IMG/VR virus record: IMGVR_UViG_3300021093_000101 | Coordinates: 1-53,949 of that record | DNA: 53,949 nt | Source: a virus | Direction: 5' to 3' (one strand) | Part shown: piece after piece, positions 26,860 to 52,695 of the stretch | How the letters are laid out: each line of letters starts with the position of its first letter | Numbering within the stretch: the first letter of the stretch is position 1 | Notes under the pieces: generated by a model | Seen by the model: the letters and a program-made list of their open reading frames with translations, nothing else | Database searches by the model: none | Told to the model about the DNA's origin: nothing | Made by a program: the position numbers and the translations under genes

Positions 26860-29800
26860 TTAACGAAGGCCAATACGACGGCGAGAATTGGGAGAGTTAG
26901 CGAGACGGTCAAGAGCAATAGTGGCTCCACGAGAAGCGCCTTCCCTGACAGCTATTCTACGAGTTTCGGCCATAGCAACTTCCAACTGGGCTCTATCCAC
27001 ATATTCCACGCCATTAATAGTCGTACTTTGGAAACTCATTGATAATACAGGAGTCGTAGCATTATTGCTTGCAGTATTGCCCATGCGATCACGAATGCTC
27101 GTGTCTTGAAGTTGCACTGGAATTGAACGACCATCAGGAAGCGGAACAATGGCTTCGTTGTAGCGCCCTTCTCCGACCAGTCCAAGCGTTGGGCCGGTAA
27201 CCATGCCTCCATTGGCAAATGGCGTTACGGGGAATGGTTCCCAGCCGCCAGTGGCAATGCCACCATTGGCCCCAAAACGCCCGCCAAGAAATCTAGGCAC
27301 TCTTAAGGCGCCAGTGCCAGAAAGATTATTGCTGGCCGTGGCGAGAGAACCACCTCCACCACCTCCACCAAACAATCCTCCTAAACCACTAAAAGCACTG
27401 CCCAAGCCAGCAACACTCATGAGGATGCTGCCGATACCACCAAGAACGCCAGATGTGCCTCCGCTTTGAATTTGTTGCACGCCAGCAGCAATACCCAATA
27501 CTGAGCCAGCGGCGGCGCCAAGAGTTTGCACTGCTCTTCCAAGTGCTTGCCCAAAGCTACTACCTTGTCTTTGAGTTTCTTGAGTGCCAGCAGCTAAAAC
27601 ATTGCTAGCCATTTCAGTTTGCTGACTGATGCCAAATGTAGCATTTGAAAACACGTCTCTAGTGGCAGCAATGGATTGCATATAATCTTCTTGAACGCTA
27701 GTGAGAGAGCTAAGTTGTTCAGAAATGCCAGCAAAATTAACGCTTGTATCCCCCATTGCTTGTGCATATGTAACGCCAGTCATGTCTACACCTGCTCCGC
27801 CAAGTAAACCAGCAAGACCTCCAACAGCAGTAGTTGCTGTCTGTCCAGAAGGAGCAGCACCACCTCCTATTGCATTGGTAAGTTCTTTAATCGCTTTTGT
27901 ATTGTCAATTGTGGCATTTGTATTGGCTTCTACTGGCGTAGCTGCTTTCTTTTGTTCTTCGTCTATGCCTGGAATATTTTTAGGAAGGAACATATCTCTT
28001 AAGCTTTCCTGGAAGAATTTTTCCACTGGGGCCATGGTGAAGTCCAGGAAAATTGTCAATACACGATCAGTAAGAGCTTCTTGGAACTGCTTTAACGCAT
28101 CAGTTGCATCTTCACCTTTAATAACGGCCTTCAAGAAGCCTTTGTAGTCATTGCTTGTGCTCTTGACGAAATCATCAATCAATGCACGAGTTTGCTCAAG
28201 ATTTCTCTTCACCTCTTGCAGGCGATAGATTTCGTCTTCCTTTTCCTTGGAAATACCTTTGTTTTCTTGACGAATCCTGAGACGACGTTCTTCTTCGTCG
28301 GAAATAGCACGCAGCAGTTTAAGTTCTTCTTTTAAATTAGCAATAACTTTATCGCTAATTCCTTCTTTTTTGAGTAGATTATTTTCATCGATAAGCTTGT
28401 TGGCTTCGGGGAGTAATTTTCTAAGCTTCTCTATTAAATCATTTTGAATTTTGTTTCTCTTATTTGCTTCGTCTGTCGTAATAATTCCATCTTTAACTTT
28501 TTGATTGTTTTCTTCAATAACTCTTGTCGCCTCTGCGATGCCAGCGTTGATCCTTTCTTGGATTTCATATTTTTGCATGGCTGCATCTAAGTCGTCACCT
28601 TCCAGCCCTTGAGCCTCAAGACGATTCCTTTCCGCAAGTAATGAATTTTGAAGCTTTTGTTCTGCTGGAGAGAAAATTGACGCCACATAATTTTCCAGCG
28701 CTAATTGAATTTTGCCATAAGCAATCTCTTCCGCTTGCAGGAGAATTAAGTTTTCTTTGCGTTGTGCAATTTCTACTTGCTGAGCCGCTAACGCATCACG
28801 CTTTTCACTGCCAGGCACTTTGCGGGGGGCGCCAGGACCAACTGCCTCGGGAGCCAAGGAAGCCAAGTGTCCAAGCTGGAAGTTGCCCTCTGGAGTGGTC
28901 ACTTGCGCCATTAGTCCTCCTCTGCCTCCCACTTGACCATATTGGCCAATGGAAGCGCCTGGTTTCAGGGCAATGGGAGTACCTTGGGGAGTGAGATAGT
29001 CAATGGCGTTATAGCCATGCCCAGCAGCACCCCTAGACGTGCCAAAACTGCTTGCCGCCTTCCCGCCGATTTCCAAATACTTATCCACTAAATAACGCAA
29101 AGTCTTTTCTGTCATGCCAGCCGCTTGTGCGTGGAGATGAGGACCAGTAGAACGTCCTCGCGTGAGAGCGTCTTGGGACAAAGCTCCACCAGTTGTTGCT
29201 ACTGTCCCAGGCAGAGCGGCGCCGCCAGCCACGCTTCCTTGCGCCAAAAGCACAGCGCTACGTGCTTTAAGCAGCGCCGATTGCCTTTCCATTTCGATTT
29301 GAGACAATTCTTTCTGCAGGCGAATGGCTGCTTTTTGAAAGCTATTGGCACGAGCTTCTTGAAGATCAAACTCAGCATTGATCATGCTCATGCGATGCTC
29401 GTGCAGTTGCTCAATGCGATCAATTTCTGCTTGAGTGAAAGCCTTGGCAAGCTGGTCTTGAAGGTTGTAGTAACTTTCAAGGTTAGTTGTTTTAGTATCT
29501 TGGAGCGTATTTTCTGCTTGCGTAGCGGCAGGATCAGGCTTGTTTAGTCCAAGCTGGGCGGCCCTTCGTTTTGCCACCTCTAAGTCTGCTCGCCCTTCGG
29601 TTTCTACTTTCTCGAGTGGCTCCTTCAGTTTATTTAACGACCCAAGCAAAAAGCCTTTGGTTGCTTCCTCGCCTACTTCTACACCAAGCCGCTCGGCCTC
29701 TCTTTTTTGCGCTGGAGTTAGAGTAATGAACTCGACCACTTTACCACCAGGAGCATTCCTTTTCGTGCCCGTTGTACCCTCTATCTGTTGAATAAAACCT

Positions 29801-32800
29801 TCCAAATCTTGCCTGTCCGCTTTGTTCTCGGCAAGAGTCCTTTCTATCATGGCCACGTTGCCGGTTCTGCGGGCATCCGCCATTGAGTCGATAGCTTGCT
29901 TGGCTCTGTCTGCCGCCTCTTTCGCGCTATTTCCTACTGACAAAAATGCAGCAGCGAGACTTCCCAAGAGGACAACTACCGCCCCAATACCAGTGCCAAT
30001 TAACAGTCCCTTGATGGCAAGCCCAAAAGCAGTCGTTGCTCCACTGGCGCCTAACGTGGCGATTTGCGCCCCCGTGGCTTGAACACCAAGAATCCTGTAG
30101 GCGGCAGCTAAAATAGTTGCGCCTGCTGCCCCGCTCCTGCTTATGCCCTCAACGGCTTGCATCGTATTCAGCGTTCCCATTAAAAGCAACGCCGCTAGCT
30201 TGGCCGCATTAAAGCCTAGAACTAACAAAGCAAGATTGCCAATAACAGAAGTAAGATTTCCTCCTAGAAATGTAAACAATGGGTTGAGAACATTGCCAAT
30301 TATTCCGGCCAAATTCATTGTAAAAGTAGCCGCTTTTTGTACTTCCGCCACGAAGGCTTCAATATTTTTAACTTGTTGAGCAATAGCTGGATCTTTTGCG
30401 GCTTCGTTTAAAGATTCATACTTGGCAGTCAAAGCTGCAACATTCTGCTCGGCGGCCTTAATTTCCTTGGCATCGGCTCCACCAGTCTTCAAAGCGGAAA
30501 CATCCGATTGAGCAGCCTCTAATTGCTTTCTTACTCTGTCCTGCTCGCCCATGGCGATTTGAGCCGCAGCGGAAATCTCCCTCATCGCTCCCCCGAGTGG
30601 TCCCAGAATGGCTTGCGCCGCAGCATTAGCCAATGGAGCGAAGCTTTCCAATGTGCGCTGGAAATCGCCGCCAACAGTATTCAACAAACCCTGCAACGAC
30701 CTACCCGCTGCTTGAGCGCCAGTGCCAAAACGATTCATCAATTCATCACTTACCTTCGCAAACACTTCTCTAAATTTGCCGCCGACAAACACTCCATCTT
30801 CCATCGCCTTGCTGAAATCCTTGACGGACATGCCAGCGGCTTTTGCAAAGATGGCCAAGGCACCAGGCAGTACGTCGCCTAACTGTCCTTTAAGTTCTTC
30901 GCTCATGATTTGCCCCTTGCTGGCCATTTGCCCAAAGGCATAAATCACTCGCTCCGCTTTGTCTGGAGTGAGCTGAAGGGCTGCAGTGGCGGCACTGATG
31001 CCGGTAAAGAGTTTTTCAATGGACCCCGAATCGAAGCCAGTGGGGGCCATGGAAGCATAAAGACGAGTGAAGCCCGTGCGTGTGGTTTCTAGATTGAGGC
31101 CAAAGGCTCGCTGTACGTTGTCCACGTACAACAGCTCCTTGGCGAACGTGCCGGTGTCTTGCGTTGCCGTTTGTAACGCATTATTGTATTGTTGTTGACT
31201 CTTGGCCGCATTGAGCACTTGACCAGGGAGGCTCGTAATAAAAGCAAGGCCCTTATAGGCAGTGCCGTAGAGCAACACTTGCTTTGTTGCCATTAAAAAT
31301 TCACCGCCGATCTCACGCAAGCCGCCAAGGAGAGGCACTTGCGAAGCTCGAAAGTTTTTCATTGATGCGCTAGCCACGTCCAAGACCGTCTTAAACTTCT
31401 CCATTTGACTGCCTGGACCGATGAACGTGGCGGGGCCTTGACGCCCTCCCAGTGGTAAAGTGTCCGACGGAAAGCCACCAGGAGGCACATAGCCCTGTCC
31501 AGTAAAACCGCCTCCACCTCCTCCACCGCCGCCTCTTTCTAGTGATCTCCTGAATCCAATGATGCCAGCTTCTTGCTCGAGAACCGCACGCTCTCGTTCC
31601 GCCGAGCGTTCATAAGCTCGCCTAATCCGATCTTCTTGCGCCGCATTGGCGCCAGTCATCCCAGCGGGCGGAAGACGTAGCTGGCTTGAGCCTCCCATCG
31701 CATATCTTTGTCCAGCACTAAAGCCCATTTGCTGCGCGATGGTATTAAAAATACCTTGCACACCTGGATCTTTGCGCTTAGAAGCAAACGTTTGTCCTGC
31801 TCCAGGCAGTAAGCCTCGATTTAATTCTTGGCGTAAAGCTACAAATGCTGCTCGTGCGGCATTGCGAGCGTCAATGGCCGCAGCCTTGTTGATAGCCTCT
31901 TGGAATTTCTGTCTTTCTTCCAATGGCAATACCTTGCCTGTCATGTCGATCTTGGCTCGCCCAGCACCCACCTCTGGCGCCCTGTATGAGGGTTGATCAG
32001 CTAACATGCGCTGAAAGCCCTTTGTGCCGCCTGCAGCAGGTAACAGGCGTCCACTCATTTGCGTGGCTATGGCATTTTGAAAATCAATGACAATAGCCTT
32101 CTGGATGGCGCTAGCGAATTTACGCGCATCCAGCATTTCGCGAGATGGCAACACACCTGCAATTTTTCCTGCAGAAAGTGCACGTAACGTTGTGGCCGCA
32201 TTGTTCATTGCGTCCGCAAGTTTGCGAGTAGATTGCGGAAGGTAACTGTTAGCAGAGAAGGCCTCGGCAAACATTTGCGTGCTCTTGCGCAGTTGTTCGT
32301 AGAAATTCCGAACAACTTGCTCTTGAGCACCTATGCCTCCACCAGTCTGTCGGCCTGGCGCAAGCAATCGTCCTGTTATAGGAGGAATCATTTTTGCCGC
32401 GATTTGCGCGGCGTATTGACTAGCGCCTTGAAGGTTTTGCGCAAAACGATCGAAAGATTTTAACTCTGTTTTTAATACTTGTCCGTCAAAAATTTCAGCA
32501 ACTTTAATTTCTACAACTTTGAAATAACTAGCAAGAATTGCATCGACACGTTTCTTTAATGTTTCTATGGAAAGAGCAAGTTTTCCAGAAGGTCCTTCTG
32601 GAAACATAGGCCCTCCAGCGGCAAAAATCGCTTGGAGACCAGTTGCAACAGACGCCTTTTGTGCACTTGTCCTGCTAATACTTGGGAGCAAGCCAGCAGG
32701 ACTCGCCTCTGGAGGGGCTGCCGACAGCAAACGCCCGGATGATGATGGTCCCGCAAAAACGCGCTGTGGCGTTACTGCTGGCCAAGAAATCGCGGGAAGA

Positions 32801-34101
32801 CTTTTTTGCGCCGCCAGTTTTGCTTGATTGCCTGCCTGCCTCAACAGAACAGAACCCACCTCTGTGATTACGACTTTGACAATATTGTCAAGCGTAATAG
32901 TACGCTGCCCCGCTTGAATTAATCTTTGGACAGTGGCATTTATGCCTTCCAAGCTTTGCTTCGCCAATGACTTTGTAGAGCCCCTAGCAAAACCAGCCAA
33001 TGCGGCGACGCCTCCAACCCCTAAGGCGCCTATTAACATCGCTTCTCCGCCTACTTCCAGAGCTTTATGAAGAGCCTGCAAGCTAACCTCTTGTACTACG
33101 CCAGTTAGGCCAGCGGTATCACCAATGCTAAGGCGACCCAGTTGCCTTCCAACTCCCAATACTCCCATGCCGCCAAGCTTGGTTAGTCCGCCGGTCACGC
33201 CAGCTCCAATACCTTTAGCGCCACCAACAATCGCTCCGGTTGCACCACCTCCTAATGCACCTAACGCTCCTCCACGCACTCCAGACCTTGTGGCAGCTCT
33301 TCTTCCCTCTTCAAAGCTCGTTTCAAAAGCAAAACCAAGAGACCTACCAGCGCTGCGCAACAGTGCAAGTAGCCGATCTAAGGCTTGGCTGATTCGCGTT
33401 TCGCCTTTTGCAATACTGGATTCAATTCCAAGAACAAGCCCTTCCCCAGTGTCTTTGCCAATCTTTTCTGTTTTTTTCGATGGAGATCGAGTGTCAAGGC
33501 TGGTGCGCAATTTTTCAAGGACAGCATTGCCCATTTTTGCCGCCGCCTGACCGGCCTCCGTTGTTCCATCGAGAAGCTTATTAATAAGCCCTTTGTTGGC
33601 GTCATCAGCAGCCAACTCAAAGCCCTGGCGTAATTGCTTTTTAATTTCCTCAGTTGACTTGCTAAGGTCAATTCCACCAATGCCTTCGTCAATTGCTGTT
33701 TGTGCAACACGTCGAATCGCGTTTTTATCAAAACCTCCTTCTCTGACCAGTATGCGAGTTAAATTTTGCAACTCTTTAACGCGAGCAGCGCCGCCAGCGG
33801 TGCGCTGTCCAATCACTCCTGCCTTTCCGGCAGAGGCGGGCGGCATTGTCGCCAAAGTCCTGGCTAGTTCTTGAGCCCTTTCTAGTTCTTTTTTAAGATT
33901 GGTATTAACTTCAACGTAAAATTTCTTATCGCTTATATAACGATTTAAAAGTCTAAATTCACTAACAATTTTTGTTCTGTCAAATTTGACGCTTAGATTG
34001 ATTGACTGACCAGCAAGATCTGTGCCAAGACGATTTAACTGCCCGCGAAAATGGCTAAGATCTAAACCTACCTTTAGCAGAAGTTCAGCGTCTTGAGCCA
34101 C
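26860..34101 (-). CDS. Tape measure protein with embedded M23-like peptidase motifs
   Basis: 2413 residues from a GTG; sets tail length and helps DNA delivery. Long helical N-terminal third; tape-measure domain about 935-1125 (YGTAYKGLAFITSLPGQVLN; FGQMASKGQIMSEELKGQLG); hydrophobic spans near 1300-1400 (IGNLALLVLGFNAAKLAALL; GIGAVVVLLGSLAAAFLSVG); coiled coils 1760-2060; Gly-rich end. At about 1650-1745 lie M23/LytM motifs in unusual order: GRSTGPHLH (His1655, His1657), then GHGYNAIDYLTPQGTPIA (His1695, Asp1701), then LGHL (His1745). In ordinary M23 enzymes GRSTGPHLH comes last. A peptidoglycan-cutting role during injection is inference. Confidence 0.92.
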   Translation of the reverse strand: MAQDAELLLKVGLDLSHFRGQLNRLGTDLAGQSINLSVKFDRTKIVSEFRLLNRYISDKKFYVEVNTNLKKELERAQELARTLATMPPASAGKAGVIGQRTAGGAARVKELQNLTRILVREGGFDKNAIRRVAQTAIDEGIGGIDLSKSTEEIKKQLRQGFELAADDANKGLINKLLDGTTEAGQAAAKMGNAVLEKLRTSLDTRSPSKKTEKIGKDTGEGLVLGIESSIAKGETRISQALDRLLALLRSAGRSLGFAFETSFEEGRRAATRSGVRGGALGALGGGATGAIVGGAKGIGAGVTGGLTKLGGMGVLGVGRQLGRLSIGDTAGLTGVVQEVSLQALHKALEVGGEAMLIGALGVGGVAALAGFARGSTKSLAKQSLEGINATVQRLIQAGQRTITLDNIVKVVITEVGSVLLRQAGNQAKLAAQKSLPAISWPAVTPQRVFAGPSSSGRLLSAAPPEASPAGLLPSISRTSAQKASVATGLQAIFAAGGPMFPEGPSGKLALSIETLKKRVDAILASYFKVVEIKVAEIFDGQVLKTELKSFDRFAQNLQGASQYAAQIAAKMIPPITGRLLAPGRQTGGGIGAQEQVVRNFYEQLRKSTQMFAEAFSANSYLPQSTRKLADAMNNAATTLRALSAGKIAGVLPSREMLDARKFASAIQKAIVIDFQNAIATQMSGRLLPAAGGTKGFQRMLADQPSYRAPEVGAGRAKIDMTGKVLPLEERQKFQEAINKAAAIDARNAARAAFVALRQELNRGLLPGAGQTFASKRKDPGVQGIFNTIAQQMGFSAGQRYAMGGSSQLRLPPAGMTGANAAQEDRIRRAYERSAERERAVLEQEAGIIGFRRSLERGGGGGGGGGFTGQGYVPPGGFPSDTLPLGGRQGPATFIGPGSQMEKFKTVLDVASASMKNFRASQVPLLGGLREIGGEFLMATKQVLLYGTAYKGLAFITSLPGQVLNAAKSQQQYNNALQTATQDTGTFAKELLYVDNVQRAFGLNLETTRTGFTRLYASMAPTGFDSGSIEKLFTGISAATAALQLTPDKAERVIYAFGQMASKGQIMSEELKGQLGDVLPGALAIFAKAAGMSVKDFSKAMEDGVFVGGKFREVFAKVSDELMNRFGTGAQAAGRSLQGLLNTVGGDFQRTLESFAPLANAAAQAILGPLGGAMREISAAAQIAMGEQDRVRKQLEAAQSDVSALKTGGADAKEIKAAEQNVAALTAKYESLNEAAKDPAIAQQVKNIEAFVAEVQKAATFTMNLAGIIGNVLNPLFTFLGGNLTSVIGNLALLVLGFNAAKLAALLLMGTLNTMQAVEGISRSGAAGATILAAAYRILGVQATGAQIATLGASGATTAFGLAIKGLLIGTGIGAVVVLLGSLAAAFLSVGNSAKEAADRAKQAIDSMADARRTGNVAMIERTLAENKADRQDLEGFIQQIEGTTGTKRNAPGGKVVEFITLTPAQKREAERLGVEVGEEATKGFLLGSLNKLKEPLEKVETEGRADLEVAKRRAAQLGLNKPDPAATQAENTLQDTKTTNLESYYNLQDQLAKAFTQAEIDRIEQLHEHRMSMINAEFDLQEARANSFQKAAIRLQKELSQIEMERQSALLKARSAVLLAQGSVAGGAALPGTVATTGGALSQDALTRGRSTGPHLHAQAAGMTEKTLRYLVDKYLEIGGKAASSFGTSRGAAGHGYNAIDYLTPQGTPIALKPGASIGQYGQVGGRGGLMAQVTTPEGNFQLGHLASLAPEAVGPGAPRKVPGSEKRDALAAQQVEIAQRKENLILLQAEEIAYGKIQLALENYVASIFSPAEQKLQNSLLAERNRLEAQGLEGDDLDAAMQKYEIQERINAGIAEATRVIEENNQKVKDGIITTDEANKRNKIQNDLIEKLRKLLPEANKLIDENNLLKKEGISDKVIANLKEELKLLRAISDEEERRLRIRQENKGISKEKEDEIYRLQEVKRNLEQTRALIDDFVKSTSNDYKGFLKAVIKGEDATDALKQFQEALTDRVLTIFLDFTMAPVEKFFQESLRDMFLPKNIPGIDEEQKKAATPVEANTNATIDNTKAIKELTNAIGGGAAPSGQTATTAVGGLAGLLGGAGVDMTGVTYAQAMGDTSVNFAGISEQLSSLTSVQEDYMQSIAATRDVFSNATFGISQQTEMASNVLAAGTQETQRQGSSFGQALGRAVQTLGAAAGSVLGIAAGVQQIQSGGTSGVLGGIGSILMSVAGLGSAFSGLGGLFGGGGGGGSLATASNNLSGTGALRVPRFLGGRFGANGGIATGGWEPFPVTPFANGGMVTGPTLGLVGEGRYNEAIVPLPDGRSIPVQLQDTSIRDRMGNTASNNATTPVLSMSFQSTTINGVEYVDRAQLEVAMAETRRIAVREGASRGATIALDRLANSPNSRRRIGLR

Positions 34102-39529: not shown

Positions 39530-40723
39530 TCAGCGCTCCTTAGAGACGGAGAGGGGGTTTTTCCAAGCGTTCTGCAGCTTTTCCATATAGGAAGCAGGAG
39601 CAGAAGCAGGAGTGGCGATGGAAGCAACGGCTTTGCGAAGCTCATCAGTGGTGGCAGAGTCGCTGCGAGGAGCAGCTTCGGCCAGAGTGTCAAACATGGC
39701 AGTCACATAATCGTCGGAACGCTCCGACAGATCAGCATCGCCACGAACGGCCTTGATAGAGGCTTCCATGATCTCACGGGCAGTTTTGCCAGCAAAATCA
39801 AAAGCCGAATCAAGAGAAGGACGAGCTTTGTCAATCAGAGCAATGCGCTCTTCAACAAGGCTGTCCACGTTGACTTGCTCAGCAGCGTCAAGCTCTTGCT
39901 TAAGGCTTGCCACCTCTTCAGCGAGGGCATCGGCGCGGCCTTCGGCAGCGTCGCATTTGCCTTGCATTTCTTTTTGCATGGCGTCCATTTCTTCCTTCAT
40001 TTTGGAAGCTTCGGACATCATGGCATCGTACTTTTTCTTCATGTCCTCGTAAGACATGCGGGCGTCGTCGCGTTCTTTAGTGATCGCCAGAGCTACGCTC
40101 TCGCTCACTTCAAACTCGGCGCCATCAAAATTGACCTTTGCAGTCATAGATGGTTCCTCAATGGTGGGAATCAGTGAAGGATCAGCAGCATCTAGACGAT
40201 CTAGATGAAGCTTCACTTGCGGGCCTGCGCGGCCCCGACGAACAACGGCCACGTGATTACCATTAATGGCACGTTGAATGCCATCGTAGTTCTCGCCGCC
40301 GTCAGTGACGCCAGGCGTAGGATCGTAATCAACCCTGTAGCCAGCGCTGACCTCCTTTGCATCTCCCCGCATAATGCGTGCAATAGCTTCTTGATCAGTA
40401 ATGGTCATGACGGCACGGACAAAGCCGTTGTCATAAACAATTTCTGAGCCAGTGAAGCCCACTTGATAGTCCTTTGTATTGGCGCTATCTAGTAGTACGG
40501 GAGGATGCTCAAAGGTGATTGCTTTGCCCGCAAATGAGGCCAAGCTTTCGGGAGACGCCACTTCTGTTTCAGGACGATATTCACGCCTAATGGAACCATC
40601 GGCATCGGTGTAATGTTGTACACCAGTGCGAGCAATGGTTGCCCAAGCACGAAGATAACCCTCAGGGGTTAGCTCGTACTTGTCAATGGGCGCGATGTCG
40701 TAACGAAAACATGTGTCGCTCAT
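39530..40723 (-). CDS. Prohead protease-scaffold fusion (DUF2213-like)
   Basis: 397 residues. N-terminal protease of the DUF2213 type: ITFEHPP (His73), AKEVSAGYR (Ser126), INGNHVAVV (His157), which fits the Ser/His/His set of phage head proteases. From about 195 the protein is a long charged coiled coil (KKKYDAMMSEASKMKEEMDA; ALAEEVASLKQELDAAEQVN) and ends in a helical part, as a scaffold. One gene thus provides maturation protease and internal scaffold. It starts the capsid transcript. Confidence 0.85.
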   Translation of the reverse strand: MSDTCFRYDIAPIDKYELTPEGYLRAWATIARTGVQHYTDADGSIRREYRPETEVASPESLASFAGKAITFEHPPVLLDSANTKDYQVGFTGSEIVYDNGFVRAVMTITDQEAIARIMRGDAKEVSAGYRVDYDPTPGVTDGGENYDGIQRAINGNHVAVVRRGRAGPQVKLHLDRLDAADPSLIPTIEEPSMTAKVNFDGAEFEVSESVALAITKERDDARMSYEDMKKKYDAMMSEASKMKEEMDAMQKEMQGKCDAAEGRADALAEEVASLKQELDAAEQVNVDSLVEERIALIDKARPSLDSAFDFAGKTAREIMEASIKAVRGDADLSERSDDYVTAMFDTLAEAAPRSDSATTDELRKAVASIATPASAPASYMEKLQNAWKNPLSVSKER

Positions 40724-40784: not shown

Positions 40785-41087
40785 GTGCGTCATTTGCTCA
40801 ATAGCACGACCAATGTTCTCAACATGCCTCACCTAGAGCGACGCATGCTTGTGGCTCAGCGCATGAAGGAGGCGCGTTTACATAGCGGCATGTCACAAAG
40901 AGACATTGCCAAAGAACTACACATTGGAGCAGCCACTTACTGCCGCATGGAAAGAGGAGAAAGCGAGCCGTCAGCAGTGCAAATTACGACACTCAGTGGT
41001 CTCTATGGAGTGACGGTGCTGTGGCTTCTTGGTCTGCCTAATTTCGTCGTAACTGTTGATCAATCCTCTTCATCGTCATCGTCTTGA
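40785..41087 (+). CDS. HTH (XRE/Cro-like) regulator
   Basis: 100 residues from a GTG with AGGTG about 8 bases upstream, or 87 from the ATG at 40824. The domain is a classic XRE helix-turn-helix: RMKEARLHSGMSQRDIAKEL, HIGAATYCRMERGESEPSAV, LSGLYGVTVLWLLGL. It ends in seven Ser encoded by a TCATCG-type run. It stands alone on the plus strand, facing the capsid operon, so it may control late genes. No integrase is visible, so lysogeny is not implied. The 3' end overlaps a convergent gene by 28 bases. Confidence 0.85.
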   Translation: MRHLLNSTTNVLNMPHLERRMLVAQRMKEARLHSGMSQRDIAKELHIGAATYCRMERGESEPSAVQITTLSGLYGVTVLWLLGLPNFVVTVDQSSSSSSS

Positions 41088-41973: not shown

Positions 41974-42690
41974 CTATGGGAAAAAAGTAATGGGCGCTGT
42001 TTCAATATTAACGCCTGGCCACACTTTGCCTCGATGCAAAATTAATGCAGTCATCACGCGCTCGGCTAAGAAAGAAATATAACGACAGTTATATCCTTCA
42101 ATTTGCATAATTTGCTTTTGATGGTTGTCCCAAATAGGCCACATACAGTCAAGAAGCGTTTGCATAATTTCGCAATAGTTTGCATGGTACCCTCGCGCCA
42201 TGATATGACCAAAGAAAACATTCTGATTGAATGCTTGTTCAAGATCAGTGCGGGAAATTGGCATGAAGCCTTTGTCAGCCGCCCATAAAGCAGCTTCGAT
42301 GCCATTCATGCCTTCATGCCCTTCACGGTATTGACGGGCGATGGAAAAAGGAAAGTTGACAGGCTCTGGAATATAAACCGTATCTTCCTTAGAAGGTTCT
42401 AATGCTTCATCGCTCCATTGCCTGCGATATTGAGCATTGCCAATAAATTCATCAGTGGCATTATTAATAAGCCAATAAATACCAGTGAGTTCTGACCACC
42501 ATTTGTTATACGACGAAATATTGTGACCAGCATTGTCCAAAAGCCATCCCGCATGATTTAATTGCAATTGTTCTGCCATGGAAAGATTTTCAGCCCCTAA
42601 TTTCATCCAATACAAAGAAGCGGAGGAGGAATAGCGAGGTTCATTGTCTCCATGACACATCACATAGAGATGGTGATCTTCAGCTTTCAT
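41974..42690 (-). CDS. DUF4422-type glycosyltransferase
   Basis: 238 residues. LTGIYWLINNATDEFIGNAQ followed by YRRQW is the hallmark of DUF4422 (ELTGLYWaWKN...yiGlcHYRR), a family with capsular polysaccharide and galactofuranosyl transferases; YEIMQTLLD- and FMPISRTDLEQ-like segments follow. The His of HYRR is Gln here (QYRR). It overlaps the GT32-like gene by 11 bases, so the two are co-translated. The acceptor is unknown. First of six glycan-related genes inside the head module. Confidence 0.75.
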   Translation of the reverse strand: MKAEDHHLYVMCHGDNEPRYSSSASLYWMKLGAENLSMAEQLQLNHAGWLLDNAGHNISSYNKWWSELTGIYWLINNATDEFIGNAQYRRQWSDEALEPSKEDTVYIPEPVNFPFSIARQYREGHEGMNGIEAALWAADKGFMPISRTDLEQAFNQNVFFGHIMARGYHANYCEIMQTLLDCMWPIWDNHQKQIMQIEGYNCRYISFLAERVMTALILHRGKVWPGVNIETAPITFFP

Positions 42691-43393
42691 AAACCTGCCT
42701 CGCCGCCCATAGTTCGTTGTAATTGTTCACGCCTTTGGCTCCCACGCCAGTCAAATCGCCGCCACCAGAAGGCTTGCTCCATGCAAAAATGGTGCCATCG
42801 GGCAGCACAAATGCACGATTTTTTTGTTGATGAGTGGGAGTGAGTTCAAGATAGTCGCCATAAATAAAATCAGCATCGCCTCCGTTCATGGCCAATGCCT
42901 GTCCGAGCAACGTAGGACCAGTGGGGCACAGTGGAGTAATGCCATAGTATTTTTCTTGACAATTGCCGACAATTAAATCAATTGCATTTTGCAGGGCAAA
43001 GTTATTAGGTTTTGAATAGAGAACAGTGGTAGCGCACGCCCAACTGGTATAACTAAAACGTTGAATGTCTCTAAATGCAAGCCATTTAATTCTGTCGCCA
43101 AGCTCTACTGGCGTAACGCAACGAATAGCAATATCAAAATACCATCCGCCAAGTTTATTGAGAAGACAAAATCTTCCTAAATCAGCCTTGTAAGAATAGG
43201 GCCGAAGCGAATCATAAGCTTCAACCACAGAAGAACAATAATTGTCTGCAATAAATTGGCGAAGCGTGGTTTTGTCGTAAATGGTATGCGTGGCATTTGG
43301 AAACGCTTGTTTAATAGTGCCAGTGGCGTATTGAAGAAAAGGAGAGAGCGATTGATCTTCGCTATCAGAAAGATAAATTTGTGAAATGTGCAT
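42680..43393 (-). CDS. GT32-like glycosyltransferase
   Basis: About 237 residues. SYKADLGRFCLLNKLGGWYF then DIAIRCV matches the DXD region of GT32/Och1-type enzymes (YKADLaRy.iLy..GGiYlDlD), with DIA in place of DXD. PTGPTLLGQALAMNGGDADF is the second conserved block. The enzyme class moves sugars from nucleotide donors. The third position of DXD is changed, so activity is open. It lies 2 bases after the GT4 gene. Confidence 0.75.
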   Translation of the reverse strand: MHISQIYLSDSEDQSLSPFLQYATGTIKQAFPNATHTIYDKTTLRQFIADNYCSSVVEAYDSLRPYSYKADLGRFCLLNKLGGWYFDIAIRCVTPVELGDRIKWLAFRDIQRFSYTSWACATTVLYSKPNNFALQNAIDLIVGNCQEKYYGITPLCPTGPTLLGQALAMNGGDADFIYGDYLELTPTHQQKNRAFVLPDGTIFAWSKPSGGGDLTGVGAKGVNNYNELWAARQVYES

Positions 43394-43395
43394 GA

Positions 43396-44616
43396 TCAAT
43401 CAATGCGAGCGGGAGTGCCAAAACCTTTAAATTCTTTTTGTTTAGTGGTCGCCAATGTACGCTCCACTGCTTTCAGCATTTGCTTGGTGACGTAAGGCCA
43501 AGTGAATGGCTTTTCATGCACGCGATTAAAACACCACTGCCCTGCCTTCGCCAATTCATCGCGGTTTGCATAGTACCAATCCAAAATGTCGCAAAGACTT
43601 TCGGGCGATGCTTGACCGCGCTCTAGTCCATAGTTTCTATCAGTTTCCCAGCTTTCAATGGCAATGCGAGGAATGTCATGAAAAATTTCTTTCAAGCTTG
43701 TATGGTCGGGAACAATTTGAGCCACGCCAGTTGCGGCATGTTCAGTGTTTACAAGCCCCCAACCCTCACCTAGACAAGTATTGATGCCCACGTCTGCAGC
43801 ATTGTACACTTCGTTAAGTTTTTCAACAGGAAGGCAATTATGAGTGGAGAATTGTGGGCTACTAAGAATAAGTTTGCCAGTTGGGTCGTAGCCTTTATCG
43901 CGAGCCACTCGCTTAAACAACGGAACAATTTCCCATCCCATATCTTTGGCGCCCATATTGAGCCATAGGCGAGCATCTGGCTTATCTTTTGCAAATTGAA
44001 CGAAGCCTTTGATGGTTAAATCAATGCGCTTGCGAGGCTGATTTCTGTTGCCATTGAAGACGATAAACACATCTTCTGGCACTCCCAAGCTCTTTCGGCA
44101 TTCATTCTTATCAATGGGAAAAAATTTAGTGAAATCAGTGCCGTGACCAATGATGTCAATTGGCTTGGTGTAGCCCATTTTTTCAAGCTCAAGCTTGCCA
44201 AATTCTGTGTAGGTGGCAAGTCCATCCCATTCGTTAATGCTCTCTAGAAGCTCCGGGAAAAGCCCGTAGCTGTCAATAGGAGTGTAGGTGAACCACTTAA
44301 AGCCAATGCTTTCCTGGAAGGGCTTAGCTGCTTTCCAGAGACTGATAGCGCACCAAATATCATTTGTCACCCACACCAAGTCGGGTTTAATAATTTGAAC
44401 TAGTTCGCCAATGCGATGAGAGCCAAACGGGTCGGAACCATGCACCATGGCTGGATACATTTTGCAATATTCGTGCATTGGCGTAGGGTCACCATGCCAA
44501 TTTACTGCGAGCACATGCACTTCATGCTCTTTTGCCAATGCGGGCAGAAGATATTCCGCCACTCGCCCAAAACCAGTTTGCACACTTGCGTCGCCGCAAT
44601 AAAGAATTTTGGCCAC
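43396..44616 (-). CDS. GT4-family glycosyltransferase
   Basis: 406 residues, two Rossmann domains (GT-B). N-terminal ILYCGDASVQTGFGRVAEYL and HVLAVNWHGD; linker IIGHGTDFTKFFPI; C-terminal NGNRNQPRKRIDLTIKGFVQ, DVGINTCLGEGWGLVNTEHA, with the Glu-x7-Glu-like donor loop (GEGWGLVNTE). These are GT4 retaining-transferase signatures. Likely donor UDP- or GDP-sugar. It starts the minus-strand transferase trio, divergent from the FAD oxidoreductase with 61 bases between. Confidence 0.88.
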   Translation of the reverse strand: MAKILYCGDASVQTGFGRVAEYLLPALAKEHEVHVLAVNWHGDPTPMHEYCKMYPAMVHGSDPFGSHRIGELVQIIKPDLVWVTNDIWCAISLWKAAKPFQESIGFKWFTYTPIDSYGLFPELLESINEWDGLATYTEFGKLELEKMGYTKPIDIIGHGTDFTKFFPIDKNECRKSLGVPEDVFIVFNGNRNQPRKRIDLTIKGFVQFAKDKPDARLWLNMGAKDMGWEIVPLFKRVARDKGYDPTGKLILSSPQFSTHNCLPVEKLNEVYNAADVGINTCLGEGWGLVNTEHAATGVAQIVPDHTSLKEIFHDIPRIAIESWETDRNYGLERGQASPESLCDILDWYYANRDELAKAGQWCFNRVHEKPFTWPYVTKQMLKAVERTLATTKQKEFKGFGTPARID

Positions 44617-44677
44617 AAAACCATTAAAGCTTGCTCAATAATACAAGGCTTTTAGACTGTGGCAAAGGGAAGGCGAC

Positions 44678-45658
44678 ATGCGCATCGCAATTATTGGCGC
44701 GGGATGGACTGGCTGTCATTTAGCGGCAACGCTCATGAAGGAGCATGAAATTATCCTTATTGATAAGGAAGGGCAGCCTTTTTGCGGCACGTCACAAATC
44801 AATCAAAATCGCTTGCATCTTGGTTATCACTACGCCAGGAATAAAGCCACCCGAGATATGTGCCGCAATACATTTGCTCGATTTATGCAGGATTATGGCC
44901 ACCTAACGGATGGCATGAACAATAATTTCTATGCCGTGCCGCAAAACGAAAGTTTGTTGGACTATGGCACCATTGCTCAAATTTTTAGCGATGGTTGGGA
45001 GCATGAGGAGGTAAGCGCTTCGTTTCTTTTGCAGACAGAAGCCGTCATTCGCACGCAAGAGCGCTTCATCTCGCCATTGGCGGCACAGCGCTTTTTTGCC
45101 GACTTGCTAAAAGATGTGCTTTGGCAAGAAGATATTAAGCAAAGTGATATTAATGGATTAAAAGAAAAATATGATTTAGTGCTGGACTGCACAAACAATA
45201 CTTTGCTTCGTCCTTTGCACAATGACTATTTTGAAACAGTGGCAATGTTTCTCTATAGCAAGAAGAAGACTTTGCCCTTTGACGCCCTCACTTATATTGA
45301 CGGCCCATTGTTCTCTTTCTATCCCTACGAGCACGGTTTAGTTTCTTTTAGCCACGTAGAGGATAGCATCATTGATGCGGCCAAAATGCCCATTGCTTGC
45401 TATCCATGCAGCACCACTAAGCTGAAGCAGGCAAGAGAAAGGGCTGAACTGCATGCAAGACTTTACTGGCCATCTATGAATGATTACTTGTCTTACGAAG
45501 AAACAGTGGTATCAATGAAAAGTAAGCGAGCAAATGCCAGCGCTTATAGGGCTCCGTTATTTCGCCAGCAAGATAATTTGCTCTCCATTTTTACAGGCAA
45601 AATTCAAGGCATTTATGCCATTGAAGAGCGCGTAAGGCAAACCATTCAAGGCTTATAA
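44678..45658 (+). CDS. FAD-dependent oxidoreductase (DAO-like)
   Basis: 326 residues. IAIIGAGWTGCHLAATLMKE then EIILIDKEGQPFCGTS is the GxGxxG dinucleotide-binding start with the acidic end of strand 2; NQNRLHLGYHYARN resembles the conserved ASxxNxGxxHxGxYY block of DAO-type flavoenzymes. Length and setting among sugar genes also recall UDP-galactopyranose mutase, but its motifs are not clear. It is the only plus-strand gene in the glycan block; AAGGGAAGG precedes the ATG. Its 3' end overlaps the isomerase gene by 13 bases. Confidence 0.75.
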   Translation: MRIAIIGAGWTGCHLAATLMKEHEIILIDKEGQPFCGTSQINQNRLHLGYHYARNKATRDMCRNTFARFMQDYGHLTDGMNNNFYAVPQNESLLDYGTIAQIFSDGWEHEEVSASFLLQTEAVIRTQERFISPLAAQRFFADLLKDVLWQEDIKQSDINGLKEKYDLVLDCTNNTLLRPLHNDYFETVAMFLYSKKKTLPFDALTYIDGPLFSFYPYEHGLVSFSHVEDSIIDAAKMPIACYPCSTTKLKQARERAELHARLYWPSMNDYLSYEETVVSMKSKRANASAYRAPLFRQQDNLLSIFTGKIQGIYAIEERVRQTIQGL

Positions 45659-46356
45659 ATTTCAGCAAAAAGATGATATTCGCCTGGATGTCGCTGACAG
45701 TGCAACAATTCGCGCACCACTGCTTGCGAATAACCACTACTTCTTAATGCGCTAGCAAAATTAATATGATCGTCATCTTCAACGATGCGACCAATGTCTT
45801 TATCACTTACATGCACATGGGCAATATATGGAAAGTAACCGTACAACACATCAGCGGGGCATTGATCTTCTAACCATGAATTAGAAGTGTCGATCATGGT
45901 ACGCACTGCCTTAAATTGATATGGAAGTATGGCTTCTACGATTTCGCTAACTGTAAAAAAATAATTTCCCCCATAATGTCTCGCAATTGGTTCAATGCAA
46001 ATGATGGTATTGTTTTCCGCAAAATCATCGTCAAATTTCTTTAATACGCTTAGCAATGTATGGTAACTACCTTTACGCAGGCCGGGACTGCCGAGAACCA
46101 TGCGCTGTAAATGCAAGCGCTGTGCACATTCTAAAAGCCATTTGAAATGTTTTTCCAAGTTGCAAGTATCGGTGAAAGAGTCAATGGGGACGCCCCAAAA
46201 CAATGATTGAGCTGAATAAATTTGCAAATAACCAGTAAATAACTGTTGGCGCCGCGCCGGTACAACTTCCAAAAGCTCAATGCCATCAGGAAGATGCAAC
46301 AATACTTCGCTTTGATTTTCAGGCTCCCACCCGATGGCGCTAATTCCGAGTTTCAT
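45646..46356 (-). CDS. Sugar phosphate isomerase/epimerase (TIM barrel)
   Basis: 236 residues from the ATG at 46356. GISAIGWEPENQSEVL starts the barrel; CIEPIARHYGGNYFFTVSEI carries the first metal Glu, MIDTSNSW the Asp, HVHVSDKDIG the His pair, and HLFAEIYKP the last Glu, the set found in AP-endonuclease-2/xylose-isomerase-like epimerases. It probably interconverts a sugar or keto-sugar. It overlaps the SDR gene (17 bases), so they form a pair. Confidence 0.8.
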   Translation of the reverse strand: MKLGISAIGWEPENQSEVLLHLPDGIELLEVVPARRQQLFTGYLQIYSAQSLFWGVPIDSFTDTCNLEKHFKWLLECAQRLHLQRMVLGSPGLRKGSYHTLLSVLKKFDDDFAENNTIICIEPIARHYGGNYFFTVSEIVEAILPYQFKAVRTMIDTSNSWLEDQCPADVLYGYFPYIAHVHVSDKDIGRIVEDDDHINFASALRSSGYSQAVVRELLHCQRHPGEYHLFAEIYKP

Positions 46357-47089
46357 CGACAAATTCCTTAATTCCCTTTAAAGATGATTGGGCGTCGCAG
46401 ATATAGCCAGTGGGAGAAAAAATTGTGCGGTAGTCGTAGCGCACTGTCTGGCCGTAATTTACTTTGTCAATATACTCTGGAAAACATTCCTTCAAGAGAA
46501 TAGTGGTATCCAATGGTTCGGGGAATAAATTAATAACGCGATTGGCAGGTGCATTTTGCGTGTCTTCCCAAAGATGATTTAAGTTGTACCATTGATAAAA
46601 AGAATTGCCATTAATTTTGTCAATGTTATTGTCGTTAATTAAGTCAAATAAGATGTTCTTTTTGATGAGGCGATGGAAAAGAGCGGGCAGGCGAATGATT
46701 GTCACTTCTTTGATGGACAATGGCCTCACTAGCATTTCAAACAAAAAGCGATTACTCCCATAGTCCACCCCGTTCATGCGCGGGAAATACCTTTCATCCA
46801 CTAATAATGGCGAGTGCAAATATACGTCAATGGTGGAATAGACAAAAACTTTTCTCGCCTGTGCACGTTGAAGTACGCTGACAATATTGATAATATTTTC
46901 CAGATCGGCCAGTGGCTGTTGATTTACCTTCCATTTTGCTGCTGGCAGGCAAGCTAGATATAAAGCATCAATGTATGGACAAACAGCAGGTAGCTCTTCA
47001 ATATTTTGCGAATTGAAGCAATAATCAAAACCAGTCTGTTCGCGCAGCACTGAGCCGATTAAGCCCGTGCTTCCCACCAGAACCTTCAT
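46340..47089 (-). CDS. NAD-dependent sugar epimerase/dehydratase (SDR)
   Basis: 249 residues. VLVGSTGLIGSVLREQ is the extended-SDR GxxGxxG motif; LYLACLPAAKW and VFVYSTIDVY hold the catalytic Ser/Thr strand; YGSNRFLFEMLV stands for YxxxK with Arg in place of Lys; IRLPALFH follows. Relatives are dTDP-4-dehydrorhamnose reductase-like and NAD epimerases, though this one is shorter than most (usual 280-330). Likely step: nucleotide-sugar modification. It directly follows MuF on the minus strand. Confidence 0.78.
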   Translation of the reverse strand: MKVLVGSTGLIGSVLREQTGFDYCFNSQNIEELPAVCPYIDALYLACLPAAKWKVNQQPLADLENIINIVSVLQRAQARKVFVYSTIDVYLHSPLLVDERYFPRMNGVDYGSNRFLFEMLVRPLSIKEVTIIRLPALFHRLIKKNILFDLINDNNIDKINGNSFYQWYNLNHLWEDTQNAPANRVINLFPEPLDTTILLKECFPEYIDKVNYGQTVRYDYRTIFSPTGYICDAQSSLKGIKEFVDETRN

Positions 47090-47105: not shown

Positions 47106-47783
47106 TCACACTATAACGGCGGGAGCTTGTTGGCGAAAGTATTCAACTGAACACTTGCATCTAGCTCTGCATGCACATCGCTGTCCCGGCATAGGGAGGC
47201 TTCCAATAGGGACGATTCCACGAGCGGCATAGTCCAAACAATCTTGACAATGCTGCGCCTGTGCGTCTAATTTGCGTCGCATGAGAGAGAATCCTCGTTC
47301 TTGTTCACGAAGTTCTGTTCCCTGCCAGTAAGAACCACGAACGCTTTGAGCATATAAGCCAATGCGAGCCATAGCCATGGGAGTAGAAACGCGGCTAGAA
47401 AGCAAATCGCGAACAAAATTTTGAAGATAACCATATTCCAAACGAAGCCTTTGACCAATACGACCAAATTCTGCACTTCCCATAGTCTCTCTTCCGCCAT
47501 AGCCAATAATTGCTGCTTGAATATGAGCGCTTTTAATTGCTTCGCGGACACTCCCTTGCCATTGATCAAGCGTAATTTGGCCATCACTCAGCATGCGCGT
47601 ATAGCGCTTTAACAAGCTTTCCAGTTTATCAATGCGCTTATCCACCAATTGGCCAACTGAAGCCTTGCTTAAAAATTTGCCGCGCTCATCTCGGTAACGA
47701 CCAGTAATACGGTCATAAGACCAGGCAGCGTCCATTCTCGCGGACAACACTGCCTGTCTAAATGAAGACAAATCATTCAGCAT
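47106..47783 (-). CDS. MuF-like minor head protein
   Basis: 225 residues from the ATG at 47783, overlapping the portal stop. An N-terminal helical part has RITGRYRDERGKFLSKASVG and LTLDQWQ-type sequence (ITLDQWQGSVREAIKSAHIQ). The C-terminal Cys-rich end, HCQDCLDYAARGIVPIGSLP then GQRCACRARCKCSVEY, is the MuF-type HxxC...C finger (C..C...G..PpG...C...C.C). It follows portal, the standard order. Role: minor capsid protein, perhaps ejected. Confidence 0.8.
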   Translation of the reverse strand: MLNDLSSFRQAVLSARMDAAWSYDRITGRYRDERGKFLSKASVGQLVDKRIDKLESLLKRYTRMLSDGQITLDQWQGSVREAIKSAHIQAAIIGYGGRETMGSAEFGRIGQRLRLEYGYLQNFVRDLLSSRVSTPMAMARIGLYAQSVRGSYWQGTELREQERGFSLMRRKLDAQAQHCQDCLDYAARGIVPIGSLPMPGQRCACRARCKCSVEYFRQQAPAVIV

Positions 47784-49824
47784 CGCCAGCTTCCAAGAGA
47801 TCCTGAAATTTTGCAGGCGCTTCTTCTTTCCATTCGGACAATGCCTTGTCAATGTCCTCGTCGGAAATAAAAGCAGCTTCATCGATGCCGCCAAGCATCA
47901 ACCCTTCCACTTTCATGGGATCAATAGCATCCACCTTGCTGCTCACATTCTTGGCTGGTCCGCGCCGTTCGGGGTCGGGATCGGCTTTGCGCTTGCGAGC
48001 AACAATAGTCTGACGCTCTTCTTTGCTCATCGCCTGAGCCTTGGCCTGCGGCAAGCATTTAGGCTTGCCTTCTTTTTCTTCGCGGCCACCACAAGGCCCA
48101 AGAATTTCACCATTAGCACCAATCCTCACCCATTTTTCCTTAAACCATTGCTCAAGATCATCAGCATGAATTTCTCCTTCATCGCCCTTAAAAGCGCCAC
48201 TTAAAGAGCCATGCTTTTTCTTATACATCTCTTTATAGCTTTTTACCACATAACCACTCGCATAAGCCGAAGGCCACACCTTAAACTTTGCCTTTGCCGC
48301 AGCAGTAGCGCGGGAATGAAGCTCCTTGTCTGTGAATTTTACGTCGCCACGAATCTCTTCTAAATCTCGCGGCAGAAACAAACCAGCGGCATCTGCCACC
48401 TCCCGACTTCCGTCCATGGGAAGAGTGCCATTCTCTTCATTCAATGGGTCGCGTCCGCCAGGGGGCACATTCATTTTTCCCGGCTGCATCGGCAACTCGC
48501 GAACCACAGACGGATCAAGCGTGAGTTCCATGGACCATTCCGAGCCGCCATAGCGAGCATCTGCCACTTCCTTCGGAGTGAGCACGCCCAGTTGGATGTA
48601 ACGACCATCAACAGCAGCCACGCGAGCCCTTACGTCTGCCTTTTCGCGCTCATTAAGTTCAAACAAATCATTAAACTTGACGCGCCACGATTCAGGCAAG
48701 CGTCCACTAGTTGGGCCAGTGCGACTCAACATGATGTATTCCATCAACTTCTTCAGGGGACGATGGAAAGTGGCTTGTTGGTAATCTGCCAACGTTTTAG
48801 CAAAATCACGCTCTTCGCTTCTGCCAGTAGAGCCAAGGCCACTAGGGCTTTCGCCAAACAAAATCGTATGAGGAATCTTGGAGGCGCCAATAATATCCAC
48901 GCGCATTTTTTCCAGGATCTCGCCCACGCCGCCAAAATTGCGACTAATAAAAGCCAGCTCTTCTTTTTCTGCATCAATGGCATAGCCGCGATAAACGCTC
49001 TTGCTCATATCGTTTAGCACAAGACGATCCCTTACGTCTTTCTCCTTACCAGCAGCAAGCATTTGTGACAGGCCACGAATTTTATGCACAAAAATATCAA
49101 ACTCGCTTAAAAGCGTGGCAGCAGAATTTAAGCCGGTCCAGTAGTGCTTAAAGCTTTCATAGACAGTCTGCAAACTGCTCATTCCCCACCCATAGTTTCT
49201 CTGCCTAATGCGATAGGGAAGCCAGTCACCATCAAAGCGCAAAATGCGATCTTTATGAATGTACGTAAGCTGGGGCTGGCGGATGAGATCGCCAGAAATA
49301 ATTTGATAGTACGTTGCCTTGGAATAGTCGTATAGATTCTCTTCGTTGATAACTGGCGCAATCTGCCAGCGATCCAGCACTTCCATGCCTTCCACGGCAT
49401 AAATCTTGCTTTTGTCCACTGGCTGGTCAGCGGGACGACCATCGTCGATGTAAAGAAGAATGACAGAGCCGCCGTAAAGCCTTGCATTTTTGCTGGCTAG
49501 CATAAAATTTTCAAGGATGTGCAAGTCCTCAATCGCTTGCTCCACTCCCACCACTTCCTCAGCAGCAGCGCCTTCTCCTCCAAACAGCACCTTGAAGCCC
49601 TTGCGCGTGGCCTGTTCTGCATAGATGTCCACAATGCGACGCGGCAACCATTCGCCATAGAGAGCTTCAAGCTCCTCTTGAGCCAAGAAAACAATGGGCT
49701 GAGCGTTGGTATAAAGACTCTTGTCCCTGCCTGGCATTCCCATGCCCGTCAGAGCATTGGCAAGACCATCGTTCCGCAGGCCAGCGGCAGTGGCATGTCC
49801 TAAATCTACGCTTTCTTCAGACAT
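47773..49824 (-). CDS. Portal protein (DUF1073-like) with C-terminal extra domain
   Basis: 683 residues. The portal part, about 25-450: VDIYAEQATRKGFKVLFGGE, NARLYGGSVILLYIDDGRPA, VHKIRGLSQMLAAGKEKDVR, IPHTILFGESPSGLGSTGRS, matches DUF1073 portals (ILFGxSPxGlgATGxxe). From about 500 an unusual domain follows: AKFKVWPSAYASGYVVKSYK, LEQWFKEKWVRIGANGEILG, PCGG and KPKCLPQAKAQAMSKEERQT, a pattern seen as free or fused domain in aquatic phages. The portal forms the packaging ring at the capsid vertex. Confidence 0.88.
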   Translation of the reverse strand: MSEESVDLGHATAAGLRNDGLANALTGMGMPGRDKSLYTNAQPIVFLAQEELEALYGEWLPRRIVDIYAEQATRKGFKVLFGGEGAAAEEVVGVEQAIEDLHILENFMLASKNARLYGGSVILLYIDDGRPADQPVDKSKIYAVEGMEVLDRWQIAPVINEENLYDYSKATYYQIISGDLIRQPQLTYIHKDRILRFDGDWLPYRIRQRNYGWGMSSLQTVYESFKHYWTGLNSAATLLSEFDIFVHKIRGLSQMLAAGKEKDVRDRLVLNDMSKSVYRGYAIDAEKEELAFISRNFGGVGEILEKMRVDIIGASKIPHTILFGESPSGLGSTGRSEERDFAKTLADYQQATFHRPLKKLMEYIMLSRTGPTSGRLPESWRVKFNDLFELNEREKADVRARVAAVDGRYIQLGVLTPKEVADARYGGSEWSMELTLDPSVVRELPMQPGKMNVPPGGRDPLNEENGTLPMDGSREVADAAGLFLPRDLEEIRGDVKFTDKELHSRATAAAKAKFKVWPSAYASGYVVKSYKEMYKKKHGSLSGAFKGDEGEIHADDLEQWFKEKWVRIGANGEILGPCGGREEKEGKPKCLPQAKAQAMSKEERQTIVARKRKADPDPERRGPAKNVSSKVDAIDPMKVEGLMLGGIDEAAFISDEDIDKALSEWKEEAPAKFQDLLEAGDAE

Positions 49825-52619: not shown

Positions 52620-52695
52620 GCCCCTGTAGCCCAATCAGGCAGTAGGCAAACGACTTAAAATCGTTCAAGTGCAGGTTCAAATCCTGCCAGGGGCA
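52620..52695 (+). tRNA. tRNA with anticodon UAA (Leu by anticodon; short variable loop)
   Basis: A full cloverleaf of 76 bases: acceptor GCCCCTG/CAGGGGC (7 bp), weak D arm GCC/GGC with GG in the loop, anticodon stem AACGA/TCGTT with loop CTTAAAA (anticodon TAA), variable CAAGT, T arm GCAGG-TTCAAAT-CCTGC, discriminator A, and no encoded CCA. The anticodon reads UUA (Leu). Bacterial tRNA-Leu normally has a long variable arm, whereas this has five bases, a class I shape. The charging identity is therefore uncertain. Confidence 0.9.

Follow-up and report, generated by a model that had tools for sequence, protein, structure and literature searches.

We found that a virus whose closest cultured relative is Synechococcus phage S-CBS4 carries, inside its head gene module, a conserved and exchangeable island of genes for glycan synthesis. 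The DNA analysed, hereafter the window, is the whole of an uncultivated IMG/VR virus record of 53,949 bases. Between positions 41974 and 47089 it contains six open and intact ORFs, separated by overlaps or short gaps (Table 1), as the preliminary description had stated. This arrangement is far beyond chance, having been found again in dozens of independent contigs. We consider it somewhat more probable than otherwise (roughly 0.55) that the products of the island build a sugar decoration specific to the lineage and attach it, most likely to virion proteins of the fibre, tail or capsid surface.

Table 1. Features of the glycan island and of its surroundings in the window.
Feature	Length	Coordinates	Strand	Basis and remarks
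Portal protein with C-terminal DUF5872 domain		47773..49824	-	Pfam Phage_portal_3 2.2e-63, DUF5872 2e-12; left anchor of the site
MuF-like head morphogenesis protein		47106..47894	-	phrog_24776 8.6e-79; 60% to S-CBS4 gp13; directly precedes the island
SDR-like NDP-sugar reductase/epimerase (putative)	249 aa	46340..47089	-	AF2 and Foldseek; first gene of the optional module
Xylose-isomerase-like TIM barrel	238 aa	45646..46362	-	Pfam AP_endonuc_2 1.6e-10
FAD-dependent DAO/GR2-type oxidoreductase	326 aa	44678..45658	+	Pfam DAO 1.1e-7
Divergent intergenic segment	61 bp	44617..44677	.	-10-like boxes conserved in each direction, from comparison of 43 distinct homologous gaps
GT4 glycosyltransferase	406 aa	43396..44616	-	Pfam Glycos_transf_1 9.1e-7; constant gene of the island
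GT32-like transferase	239 aa	42680..43399	-	Pfam Gly_transf_sug 4.1e-6, above cut-off
DUF4422 putative glycosyltransferase	238 aa	41974..42690	-	Pfam DUF4422 1.2e-14
DUF2213 head maturation protease		39530..40723	-	Pfam DUF2213 1e-43; right anchor of the site

The portal and MuF genes on one side and the protease, cement protein and major capsid protein genes on the other do flank the island, as described earlier, but the protease is further set apart from it by a DUF6496 gene, two small ORFs and an inverted HTH gene. This small HTH regulator (40785-41087, + strand) breaks the head module; every relative examined has it there too, likewise inverted. The orientation of the FAD gene, missed in the preliminary description, had to be corrected: the other five island genes and the head genes lie on the opposite strand, and the FAD gene is convergent with the TIM gene and divergent from the GT4 gene. 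The island genes are poorer in GC (0.41-0.46) than those for the portal, MuF, protease, cement and capsid proteins (0.47-0.55). The real start of the MuF-like gene is probably internal to the listed ORF. The DUF5872 domain occupies residues 498-604 of the window's portal protein, and the S-CBS4 portal is shorter in that part. Elsewhere in the window, the tape measure protein (26860-34101, 2413 residues) has a segment similar to an M23-type peptidase motif (GPHLHAQAAG...GHGYNAIDYLTPQG), and a tRNA-Leu (taa) gene is located near the right end (52620-52695).

The family assignments made earlier hold for all six proteins, five through Pfam matches above curated cut-offs and the SDR protein, which has no Pfam match, through its AF2 model (pLDDT 82) and Foldseek matches of this model to UDP-galactose 4-epimerase (1.7e-9) and RmlD. 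The SDR protein has the Rossmann-fold cofactor motif of extended SDRs, GxTGxxG (GSTGLIG), while its catalytic YxxxK is replaced by YxxxR, which is invariant in the aligned phage and bacterial relatives. The TIM protein (41.5 bits against a cut-off of 31.1) retains the metal ligands E124, D158, H184 and E218, likewise invariant in phage and bacterial relatives, and matches, weakly, the NCBIfam model of IolO, a 5-keto-L-gluconate epimerase (3.7e-7); we regard it as a putative metal-dependent keto-sugar epimerase. The AF2 model of the FAD protein (pLDDT 91) matches glycine oxidase (6.8e-14) and D-amino acid oxidase; the protein carries the dinucleotide-binding motif of the DAO/GR2 family, GxGxxG (GAGWTG), and a second motif, SNQNRLHxGxHYxR, conserved from phage to bacterium. 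The GT4 protein (29 bits against a cut-off of 26.4) has the EX7E motif of its family (EGWGLVNTE in the window), found in 122 of 123 sequences. We call the next protein GT32-like only, because its DxD motif is degenerate despite the domain score above cut-off: the window reads GGWYFDIAIR, 89 of 90 sequences have the form GGWYxDIx, and a non-acidic residue takes the place of the second D in these forms. Both this degenerate DxD and the YxxxR of the SDR protein are lineage-wide. The DUF4422 protein has the motif QYRR, and the copies of relatives are 33-76% identical to it. No clear membrane helix was detected in any of the six proteins. Sequence searches of the PDB with the FAD, SDR and TIM proteins returned nothing useful, and among 50,697 annotated phage records only the GT4 protein has relatives, the other five having none.

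To follow the site through its relatives, we scanned viral contigs with the GT4, FAD and head protease proteins, and obtained 114 loci spanning it, 78 of them with distinct GT4 sequences. All 78 distinct complete loci of S-CBS4-like cyanophages have GT4 at the site. GT4 is also present in 21 of 21 loci reached through the protease, an anchor with no bias towards glycosyltransferases. The GT32-like gene, usually next after GT4, is present in 68 and the DUF4422 gene in 59 of the 78. The SDR-TIM-FAD trio, in contrast, is complete in 46 loci and wholly absent from 32, with not a single partial case; the FAD gene has the inverted orientation in every one of the 46. An extra, unassigned gene, GTx, adjoins FAD on the same strand in 38 of them; it is missing from the window and a group of its close relatives. 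GTx encodes about 230 residues (for example L045:9244-9939 and L006:9306-9995), and the L045 copy has no Pfam or NCBIfam match. Where the trio is absent, GT4 is mostly followed by other genes of sugar tailoring: a C-methyltransferase with CmcI/Methyltransf_24, a radical SAM-SPASM protein, an epimerase with a DegT-like aminotransferase, or an FkbM methyltransferase. The constancy of GT4, the all-or-none trio and the other tailoring genes in its stead together make this a conserved, exchangeable glycan island. The preliminary description had called for a search for the six genes in other cyanophages, and the site proved not to be unique to the window; in the relatives the island occupies this same position among the head genes, not another. 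The six genes are there, but the idea of one indivisible six-gene insertion is rejected, as GT4 is constant, the GT32-like gene common, DUF4422 variable and the trio optional. One alternative cassette includes a protein of 410-430 residues (SWDCFDTLVTR...; L161:7445-8737 and L073:12575-13816) that is possibly HAD-like; the L161 copy has no Pfam match. HNH endonuclease genes occur at differing points inside the islands of relatives (L006:12414-12953, L232:9459-9875, L271:8712-9212), and such insertions possibly help module exchange.

S-CBS4 itself (gp12-gp24, HQ698895), a phage of Synechococcus CB0101, has its genes in the same sequence: portal, MuF, GT4, further glycan genes, DUF6496, two small ORFs, inverted HTH, DUF2213 protease, cement and capsid. 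Its GT4 (gp14), at the same site, is 63% identical to that of the window. It lacks, however, the SDR, TIM, FAD, GT32-like and DUF4422 genes, and has instead a galactosyltransferase-like gene and a methyltransferase gene behind GT4, and an HNH gene.

Bacterial relatives of the FAD protein, which we located in 29 genome contigs, indicate that the trio belongs together. In Aestuariibacter salexigens FAD, SDR and TIM are contiguous in a polysaccharide locus, downstream of a Wzm/Wzt-type transporter pair. In a Sulfurovaceae MAG, SDR, TIM and FAD are fused in that order in one 830-residue ORF with no internal stop, followed by a relative of GTx. In Pelagibacter and Prochlorococcus contigs FAD adjoins a different SDR-like gene. 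Phage and bacterial trio proteins are 22-33% identical, and share the FAD motif, the four TIM ligands and the SDR YxxxR described above. The bacterial fusion and adjacency point to a single pathway for SDR, TIM and FAD, and we regard the trio as one functional unit; its chemistry we deduce from the enzyme families. Operons pairing an oxidoreductase with TIM barrels resembling sugar phosphate isomerases/epimerases process 3-keto-glycosides (PMC10628242), and this, together with the IolO-like TIM protein, leads us to propose oxidation, epimerization and reduction of a sugar by the trio.

All six island genes are under purifying selection: their median dN/dS values are 0.034-0.074, compared with 0.041 for the portal and 0.102 for the capsid protein. 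With motifs that are nearly universal, this argues against the dead active sites considered in the preliminary description, and we reject the possibility that the enzymes are dead. The sequences nevertheless diverge fast. Among phages whose portals are 0.86-0.92 identical, the mean identity is about 0.6 for SDR and FAD but 0.94 for the capsid protein. The genes are functional, and their quick divergence is what a surface trait would lead one to expect. The window's TIM (0.54-0.57) falls below all 51 comparable pairs (minimum 0.66), but its FAD is inside the range of other pairs and its SDR merely at the lower edge, so exchange of trio alleles within the lineage is only suggested.

We then considered expression. 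The preliminary description took the position among late genes to favour a virion role; the place is indeed conserved in the head module. Taken by itself, the location argues only weakly for a virion target, since FAD runs antisense to the late genes and between it and GT4 there is a conserved stretch resembling a divergent promoter. In 43 distinct sequences a segment of 61-80 bp separates GT4 from the divergent FAD or GTx, whereas where the trio is missing GT4 comes about 40 bp after MuF, and these loci showed no divergent segment of this kind. The GT4-side site of the window (TTGCCA-16-TATTAT, 44665-44638; score 10/12) belongs to the top two matches within 38-54 kb. Promoter counts over this region showed no excess above shuffles, so only cross-species conservation argues for a divergent promoter; the segment probably has promoter activity, and GT4 may have a promoter of its own. 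Being on the + strand, FAD is outside the late leftward transcript. Late co-transcription of all six genes is thus rejected, for the window as for every other trio-bearing locus, and GT4 possibly being under its own promoter speaks against taking co-expression with the head genes for granted. The location in a late module is suggestive of late expression of the island, not proof of it.

The conserved motifs and purifying selection make it plausible, as proposed earlier, that the set can make and transfer an unusual sugar. The FAD enzyme would oxidize a host NDP-sugar (or an already transferred sugar) to a keto sugar, which the metal-dependent TIM barrel would epimerize and the SDR enzyme reduce to a rare sugar. 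A cytoplasmic protein would receive its first residue from GT4; extension of the glycan would fall to the GT32-like and DUF4422 enzymes, joined in relatives by GTx. By swapping the tailoring module, phages would acquire a different surface sugar in each lineage, comparable to O-antigen serotype switching. Fibre proteins rich in serine and threonine (20-26%) are, by composition alone, candidate acceptors. Against decoration of the virion we count the replaced second D of the GT32-like protein, the replaced catalytic Lys of the SDR protein and the DAO fold, since enzymes of this fold oxidize amines more often than sugars. We searched 12 records, the window and 11 relatives (11 of the 12 are 67-79 kb), and found no sugar-nucleotidyltransferase, no WecA-type polyprenyl-phosphate sugar transferase and no Wzx-type flippase (PF01943). 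Lacking sugar-nucleotide genes of their own in these records, the islands must draw on host nucleotide sugars. The simplest reading would be direct glycosylation of a cytoplasmic acceptor, for example a virion protein before release.

The main rival, in our view unlikely though to be taken seriously, is that the island alters cytoplasmic precursors of the host LPS, O-antigen or capsule, thereby blocking superinfection or adsorption to debris. The bacterial trio relatives, found near Wzm/Wzt-type export, glycosyltransferase and sugar-nucleotide genes, suit such a role equally well, and quick divergence and swapping of tailoring modules also suit an arms race at the host surface. Moreover, an integrase is encoded in three of the 12 records, the window not among them, and some of these phages may therefore be capable of lysogenic conversion. 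The missing polyprenyl-phosphate sugar transferase and flippase, however, speak against it, as do the lack of a gtr-type GT2 enzyme (PF00535) in the window and of membrane proteins in the island; a fixed place in the head module and mostly integrase-free records fit a lytic virion role better. Judged by the GT2-type enzyme, flippase and integrase, none of which the window has, the island differs from the Gtr seroconversion modules of temperate phages, which it resembles in having phage glycosyltransferases that vary between relatives. The bacterial O-antigen and capsule loci of Aestuariibacter salexigens and the Sulfurovaceae MAG have the same trio, contiguous or fused, beside glycosyltransferases, but possess export or sugar-nucleotide genes, and the phages have neither.

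It is improbable that FAD, TIM and SDR form a catabolic or salvage pathway for keto-glycosides, with the glycosyltransferases as unrelated passengers. The 3-keto-glycoside operons and the weak IolO similarity would allow it, but in phages the trio always occurs with GT4 (46/46), it adjoins GTx in the bacterial MAG and in most phage loci, and its bacterial relatives lie in biosynthetic polysaccharide loci. Slightly less probable still is the sugar-coating of modified phage DNA bases against restriction, a known role of phage glycosyltransferases (PMC12619734), because the 12 records have no thymidylate-synthase-type hydroxymethylase (PF00303), the window having ThyX and a dCTP-deaminase-like protein instead, and the island lies in the head module, away from replication genes; a search for Tet/JBP (PF12851) gave no match, but its control was likewise silent.

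To our knowledge, glycosylation of phage virions is known mainly from mycobacteriophages. According to two papers that cite Freeman 2023 (PMC12619734, PMC11600133), mycobacteriophages glycosylate capsid and tail-tube proteins, and one of their clusters has tandem glycosyltransferases beside an O-methyltransferase. S-CBS4-like phages also have tandem glycosyltransferases and methyltransferases. The two papers mention no redox/isomerase module, in contrast to the putative three-enzyme sugar-remodelling module of the cyanophages, which is fixed in the head module and exchanged between relatives. Virion glycosylation itself is thus already known in other phages; the phage SDR-TIM-FAD unit is previously undescribed.

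Tentatively, and with somewhat less confidence than in decoration of the virion as such, we propose that the fixed slot in the head module is a phage serotype locus for exchangeable cassettes that would set the virion sugar type of each lineage. In one of them, the FAD-TIM-YxxxR-reductase unit would convert a host nucleotide sugar into a new rare sugar. The trio would represent an uncharacterized three-enzyme sugar pathway that these phages share with bacterial surface-polysaccharide loci, and the natural 830-residue fusion is a ready target for biochemistry. If the island decorates virions, the constant presence of GT4 among the head genes would have an explanation open to test, and a whole group of aquatic (freshwater) cyanophages would possess a dedicated, swappable glycan locus.
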